From positions 124,001 to 188,000 of the forward strand of contig NZ_QBKQ01000002.1 in NCBI RefSeq assembly GCF_003054225.1: a DNA stretch of 64,000 nucleotides, in the 5' to 3' direction. The translations under genes were made by a program, and so were the position numbers. Shown in pieces: positions 1,300 to 1,370 of this stretch (position 1 is the stretch's first letter; each line of letters opens with the position of its first letter). Source of the DNA: Christiangramia gaetbulicola (GTDB lineage Bacteria > Bacteroidota > Bacteroidia > Flavobacteriales > Flavobacteriaceae). A model generated the notes under the pieces. The model saw only the letters and a list, made by a program, of their open reading frames with translations. It did no database searches and had not been told where the DNA came from.

Positions 1300-1370
1300 A
1301 CAGTTACTTTTTTAAAACTAAATAACCTAACCCACAGAAATTTCTAATTTCTGTACATTAAAGTAACTGT
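1300..1370 (+). promoter_or_regulatory. Nested inverted repeats in the sigma-factor leader
   Basis: ACAGTTACTTT (1300-1310) is the exact reverse complement of AAAGTAACTGT (1360-1370), and between them ACAGAAA (1334-1340) pairs with TTTCTGT (1348-1354). The 3' arm of the outer stem ends one base before the ATG at 1372. If transcription starts near 1273 the whole structure is in the mRNA and would hold the start region in a stem. A DNA-binding dyad is the other reading. Confidence 0.6.

Follow-up and report, generated by a model that had tools for sequence, protein, structure and literature searches.

At this locus of Christiangramia gaetbulicola the gene of an ECF sigma factor is preceded, right up to its start codon, by inverted repeats, and the question they raise is whether these belong to an RNA that governs the translation of the sigma factor, to a DNA operator, or to chance. 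Our answer, to which we give a probability of about 0.8, is that the 5′ leader of the sigma mRNA, some 100 nt long, acts in cis, as a conserved RNA, to keep translation low. The window, that is, the whole stretch of DNA analysed, comprises 64,000 nucleotides (contig NZ_QBKQ01000002.1, positions 124,001 to 188,000, forward strand), and the following features, in its own coordinates, are those on which the argument turns:

1235–1267, + strand: predicted primary-sigma promoter of the Bacteroidetes type, from the sequence, with TTTG at 1235–1238, a spacer of 21 and TATATTTG at 1260–1267
1289–1295, + strand: GCNUAUH element, here GCCTATT, with the AUH codon at 1293–1295, upstream of the 5′ arm; located by iterated-matrix anchoring
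1300–1310, + strand: outer stem, 5′ arm; from the exact repeat, the fold and two-sided changes
1334–1354, + strand: inner hairpin, with arms at 1334–1342 and 1346–1354; from the exact repeat
1360–1370, + strand: outer stem, 3′ arm, covering the bases immediately upstream of the sigma start codon; from the repeat, the fold and two-sided changes
1372–1956, + strand: ECF sigma factor gene, 194 aa (Pfam Sigma70_r2, 5.3e-16; Sigma70_r4_2, 1.5e-10)
2018–2170, + strand: small ORF of 50 aa (MGKLYFKKSSKEEK...KKETIEFLLNYSKALSVIEYKKMKFETLMN), conserved neighbour 3′ of the sigma gene

The outer inverted repeat is formed by ACAGTTACTTT (1300–1310) and AAAGTAACTGT (1360–1370), which are exact reverse complements over 11 bp, just as the earlier note on this DNA had claimed for the stretch before the sigma ATG at 1372; the nested repeat, ACAGAAATT/AATTTCTGT (1334–1342/1346–1354), is also exact, but it is 9 bp long and not 7 bp as stated there. 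The promoter proposed upstream, TTTG-N21-TATATTTG, was likewise found in its place, and the transcription start of the sigma mRNA would lie near 1273. The RNA between 1290 and 1390 is predicted to fold at −17.1 kcal/mol (z −2.94), with none of 200 shuffles equally low. An exact inverted repeat of at least 11 bp appeared in 16 of 2000 first-order Markov resamples of the leader and is present in 6 of the 1253 overlapping tiles of the window; taken alone, the 11-bp repeat is only a moderate surprise, and it is conservation that is decisive.

The nearest named relatives belong to Gramella/Christiangramia (96% protein identity). At the E-value limits set, an ortholog is present in 52 of 59 relatives, 144 of 149 family genomes, 140 of 159 class genomes and 71 of 148 genomes of the phylum draw, the gene being single-copy in nearly all the class genomes where it was found; the ranks used for these comparisons we take to be Flavobacteriaceae, Flavobacteriales and Bacteroidia. 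The apparent internal stops of some class matches were set aside, as they look like the normal end of the protein, and the ORF runs for 192–194 aa to its stop in the 7 loci checked.

The leaders of these relatives share one layout: GCNTATH, often followed by GCATAA, then the 5′ arm (for example, ATTACTTTT or TCTACTTTT), a variable loop, often containing a hairpin, and a 3′ arm reaching up to or onto the ATG, with GCNUAUH standing some 11 nt upstream of a conserved [CT]UAC in the 5′ arm. The iterated matrix anchored the element in 165 of 181 order-level leaders, a figure that includes one downstream copy anchored wrongly (L130), and in 47 of the 88 leaders of the class draw, 85 of which are from other families and 3 from the own family (L178, L179, L181), with several per family, so that the class-draw counts are non-independent events; two further leaders (L172 and L251) were dropped because their start codon was not found. 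Three of the 16 unanchored order-level leaders (L042, L090, L122) have looser versions of the element, as have, by eye and under a permissive rule, about 25 of the 41 class-draw leaders in which the matrix missed it. A TAnnTTT[GA] box lies upstream of GCNTAT in 109 of 121 non-redundant order-level leaders, mostly 19–36 nt away. Compensating changes included, the stem is conserved throughout the order and in a good many of the other families of the class, though not in every one, and inspection of 15 loci from other classes by eye alone showed no leader of this kind. The earlier account is supported as to the stem, from which conditional translation would follow, but it overlooked both the most conserved part of the leader, GCCTAT at 1289–1294, and a reach that goes beyond the family.

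The comparison of relatives for compensating base changes, which had been proposed as the check on the stem, was carried out in several forms, and the stem proved to be conserved with such changes. In 158 distinct order-level leaders the duplex between the two arms of the same leader has a mean energy of −11.54 kcal/mol, against −8.19 kcal/mol (sd 0.16 over permutations) when the 3′ arms are swapped between species and −4.24 kcal/mol with shuffled 3′ ends; in 38 class-draw leaders (35 of other families) the corresponding values are −9.64, −6.29 (sd 0.36) and −5.05 kcal/mol, all these energies being uncorrected for the relatedness of the species and obtained after removal of near-identical arms and short leaders, which kept 158 of 165 and 38 of 47. 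All 38 keep GCNTAT, and seven of them have lost the stem (energies above −5), so the element and the stem can part. In the model-fitted alignment, two-sided changes affect 15 of 18 pairs and amount to 120 cells, against 38.2 in shuffles and 19–45 in slid versions; it was built from 78 loci hand-picked for diversity and for presence of the element (62 sense matches, 16 without a match at E 0.5), and its 68 rows include six faulty ones that were left in, namely five antisense matches and one match elsewhere (L029, 3463–3501). A structure-blind MAFFT alignment of 14 sequences gave 9 two-sided cells against 3.1 in shuffles, while another alignment was left unused, variable bulges before the ATG making it unfit for column counts. 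The pairs AAAACTACCCTGTTTT with AAAACGGGTAGTTT (L228) and CATACTTCTACATTTT with AAAAGTGTAGAATTATG (L254) illustrate this. The inner hairpin shows two-sided changes in all 5 modelled pairs and has 74% of its cells paired, with 26–35 of the 68 rows gapped there. Because of this covariation, it is very likely that the stem forms in the RNA and covers the initiation region of the sigma factor.

A pattern search of the own genome with a spacer limit of 40 missed the site of the window, where the spacer is 49, and a model built from 14 family leaders was used instead; in the own genome it finds only the sigma-leader site (E 6.8e-17), the next match having an E of 2.9. In 60 genomes of the same family the model gave 50 matches in 47 genomes, 46 of them directly before the sigma gene and in sense orientation, the other four being one antisense of a sigma-leader match, one in a genome without a listed sigma position (G089) and two weak matches elsewhere (E 0.001 and 0.027); under the stricter filters, 13 of the 60 have no match at E 0.05. 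An exact search for GCCTATAGCATA on both strands of 100 family genomes listed 52 sites, and of the 30 for which loci were obtained, 15 are sigma leaders. The possibility that the element is a feature shared with other genes was rejected, as tblastx finds no similarity among the 15 non-sigma loci and blastn gives nothing beyond short matches, of which the best covers 28 nt around the motif (L281 against L290). The covariance models of Rfam 15 have no match at 1260–1380 of the window up to E 5, and in nine other loci only three sub-threshold matches up to E 1. On this comparison of sequences the leader element is nearly restricted to one gene; the leader combines a fixed place before that gene with compensating changes, as is proper to a conserved cis-regulatory RNA, and its fold is probably a real control device.

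What the stem would hide is the place where translation begins. In the predicted fold of the window's own leader the bases at −15 to −1 are mostly paired (P unpaired 0.27; equally closed in only 6% of controls). The AUG falls within a small internal loop and is largely free of pairing (P 0.84), and 96% of the 54 control ORFs have a less open start codon. The mean predicted probability of being unpaired at −15 to −1 is 0.22 in the 165 order-level leaders and 0.34 in the 47 class-draw leaders, compared with 0.57 in the 54 control ORFs, which are uncurated ORFs of the window with at least 150 codons, and 0.60 in the 16 unanchored order-level copies, among them 13 that stand downstream in a duplicated pair of sigma genes. 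Comparative and predicted pairing together support the claim, made from the repeat alone, that the outer stem would make the sequence just upstream of the start codon double-stranded. The 3′ arm takes in an A-rich run at about −10 to −13, and many relatives also have the AUG paired, through CAUA/UAUG with CAUA on the 5′ side, the outermost pair of this helix being C-G in 37 of 67 rows and the innermost A-U in 61 of 65. GGAG is found at −18 to −3 in none of the 181 order-level leaders, that of the window included; GGAGG occupies these positions in 24 of the 88 class-draw leaders, and several of their 5′ arms read ACCTC, so that in those leaders the Shine-Dalgarno sequence would be the part that is hidden. 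A strong Shine-Dalgarno sequence before the sigma gene, unusual for the class, was noted in nine loci from other families of the class (L184, L186, L187, L195, L197, L202, L223, L229 and L262), where it faces an upstream arm of partial complementarity, for instance ACCTCTAC or CTACTTTTT. In Flavobacterium johnsoniae structure around the start tunes initiation and goes with lower initiation (PMC6847099), from which it would follow that the default effect of the stem should be low translation.

The course of events proposed is as follows. The 5′ arm pairs, as the comparison of relatives shows, with the initiation region of the sigma factor, that is, with an A-rich stretch, the bases adjoining the start codon and often the AUG, and this paired state would block initiation. 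Since the GCNUAUH element stands directly before the 5′ arm, any molecule bound to it would be a natural competitor of the stem: a factor bound there could cover the adjacent arm and release the sigma start site, and this factor would most likely be a ribosomal subunit, or otherwise a protein or a small RNA. The sigma output would in this way be set by the cell at the level of translation. The GCN of the element is predicted to be only partly unpaired (0.37–0.55). Three other roles were tried for the element. Pairing of the element with the loop or the early coding region, as a pseudoknot, gave no signal (own −5.72 against shuffled −5.63, n = 165; −5.81 against −5.62, n = 47). Pairing of GCCUAUAG with 16S rRNA was rejected, as the 16S locus contains no exact complement of GCCTATAG, CCTATAG or GCCTAT; GCCTATAG has one match there with G-U allowed, and this is a weak test, the anti-Shine-Dalgarno string not having been found in that locus. 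A −10 box of a second promoter is disfavoured, there being an A-rich patch and no second box at a fixed upstream distance.

That the repeat should be a product of chance, without function, is scarcely credible: an exact repeat of 11 bp is not extremely rare, as the resamples and tiles indicate, but conservation and compensating changes extend well beyond the family and refute this for the stem as a conserved feature. The same changes bear upon a DNA operator for autoregulation, the alternative that the earlier note had left standing. An inverted repeat placed after a promoter can serve as a repressor site; here, however, the arms change sequence together and keep their complementarity, the inner hairpin varies too, the spacer or loop extends by eye from about 20 to more than 60 nt, where an operator would call for a palindrome of fixed spacing, and the 3′ arm keeps its place at the start codon, with the promoter at varying distances, all of which makes the operator highly improbable.

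Other rivals accept an RNA and differ in what would open it. In an activation like that of rpoS in Escherichia coli, a small RNA in trans would pair with GCNUAUH and the 5′ arm and displace the 3′ arm, and a short conserved element beside an occluding arm suits such strand displacement; a self-inhibitory stem is known in the rpoS mRNA (PMC6762075). Against this, the 5′ arm differs between species, so that the partner would have to change along with it, and the 15 examined non-sigma GCCTATAGCATA sites of 100 family genomes contain no recurrent complement, although a short or changing partner would escape such a comparison; we regard a small RNA as rather improbable. Much the same may be said of an RNA thermometer, whose usual anatomy, a helix of moderate stability that is rich in A/U and covers the place of initiation, is also seen here; such a helix would melt with rising temperature and free the sigma start, but it would have no need of a sequence-conserved GCNUAUH, and the leader stretch of the window matches no thermometer family in Rfam. 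A riboswitch-like leader, with GCNUAUH as the binding site of a protein or a small molecule, is unlikely: the short invariant element persists in some leaders that lack the stem, as a binding site might, but so short a conserved stretch would make a very small pocket for a metabolite, and no Rfam family matches.

A more particular form of the occluded leader deserves mention, as possible but doubtful, in which the mRNA would have a second ribosome site in tandem with that of the sigma gene, lying upstream of it on a non-AUG codon (AUA, AUU or AUC) that would be weak by design. A non-AUG start site is known from infC. A 30S subunit or ribosome at AUH would cover about 15 nt downstream, which is the place of the 5′ arm, and would unlock the real start of the sigma factor. 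One of these three codons stands at the element in 164 of the 165 order-level and 45 of the 47 class-draw anchored leaders, with a single AUG; an A-rich patch lies 12–14 nt upstream of AUH in both groups (A 0.68–0.79), close to the A peak of 41 window ORFs at −10 to −12, and a preference at −12/−13 with a possible contact of bS1 is discussed for F. johnsoniae (PMC6847099). GGAG followed within 14 nt by AT[ACT][GA] occurs in 16 of the 88 class-draw leaders, against a mean of 1.54 and a maximum of 6 in 300 mononucleotide shuffles, counts in which the AUH need not be the anchored element and which are not phylogenetically independent; in the control, GGAG alone occurs in 16 of 88 (shuffle mean 4.0, maximum 10) and its reverse complement CTCC in 8 of 88, the 181 order-level leaders having 11 GGAG and 4 CTCC. 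The codon, the A-rich patch and the GGAG before AUH point to a ribosome at the element. On the other side, position −3 of AUH, where A would be favourable, is C in 98% at order level, and the phylum in any case avoids AUG near starts, which weakens the argument from AUH. A conserved upstream peptide was rejected, the frame not being kept and the third codon being a stop in 65 of 165 and 19 of 47; the distance from AUH to [CT]TAC varies, mainly between 10 and 14, and the upstream TAA is also explained by its pairing with the start region. On account of the C at −3, the frame, the kinship of the GGAG rows and the avoidance of AUG, the upstream ribosome site has been kept off the main claim. If it were true, the amount of sigma factor would be a readout of the initiation machinery itself (its start-codon stringency, IF3, and 30S subunits that are free or specialised), and this in a class whose ribosomes largely ignore Shine-Dalgarno sequences.

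Returning to the occluded leader as such, the nearest known system in working principle would be, by analogy, the self-inhibitory rpoS leader of E. coli, which is opened by DsrA, RprA and ArcZ. In both, the initiation region of an alternative sigma gene is paired with a strand lying further up in the 5′ leader, for the present leader according to prediction and covariation; the leaders differ in that the one serves sigma S and the other an ECF sigma, that the present one is much shorter and has a single invariant GCNUAUH, and that a small-RNA partner acts there, whereas none was found here among the sites examined. The rpoH thermometer and the rpoE/rseD translational coupling of E. coli also make translation the step that fixes sigma output, by way of a structured leader or of translation at a site further upstream, and the latter differs from the present case, which has no conserved AUG upstream ORF. 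Within Bacteroidota, the autoregulation of rpsU (bS21) by an extended Shine-Dalgarno sequence (PMC9976891) recalls the strong GGAGG of some other families (the 24 of 88 above), but the order-level sigma leaders have no GGAG in that region, and where a Shine-Dalgarno sequence is present it would be hidden in the stem. The structured 5′ transcribed regions of F. psychrophilum resemble this leader in being conserved and in having no Rfam match, and the examples named in the portion of the source consulted (pheA, hisG, ftsY, acsA, alaS and rimP) differ in that no sigma gene is among them (PMC9723704). The consulted parts of the literature on translation in Bacteroidia (PMC9976891, PMC8710568, PMC6847099) and on the transcriptomes of F. 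psychrophilum (PMC9723704) and Bacteroides thetaiotaomicron (PMC7366714) make no mention of the leader, nor did a search of open-licence literature by title and opening lines, a scope outside which the 64 structured leaders of the F. psychrophilum supplement fall, give any earlier description. Single-gene translational regulation in bacteria with an occluded anti-Shine-Dalgarno is poorly known, and this leader of about 100 nt offers a small, testable case of translational control in Bacteroidota and a candidate for a new Rfam family.

Several genomes, among them Maribacter, have a tandem duplication of the sigma gene, and in the 14 pairs examined (L032, L033, L130, L132, L135, L138, L141, L143, L145, L148, L151 and L154–L156) the upstream copy has the element, less clearly in L155, and the downstream copy is without it; the start region of the downstream copy is predicted to be more open than that of the upstream one. 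On the 3′ side, 147 of the 161 sigma copies with enough sequence are followed, no more than 400 nt after the sigma stop, by an ORF like that of 50 aa, and most of the other 14 come from other families of the order. The ORF at 2018–2170 has no match in Pfam or NCBIfam and might encode a small regulator of the sigma factor; it is counted here as a neighbour, since its conservation does not establish that it belongs to the leader device. Finally, a second near-copy of the 3′ arm (AAGGTAACTG) lies at 1384–1393, just within the coding region, where it could pair with the 5′ arm in place of the first, and a near-copy of this type inside the coding region is visible in many leaders of the genus.
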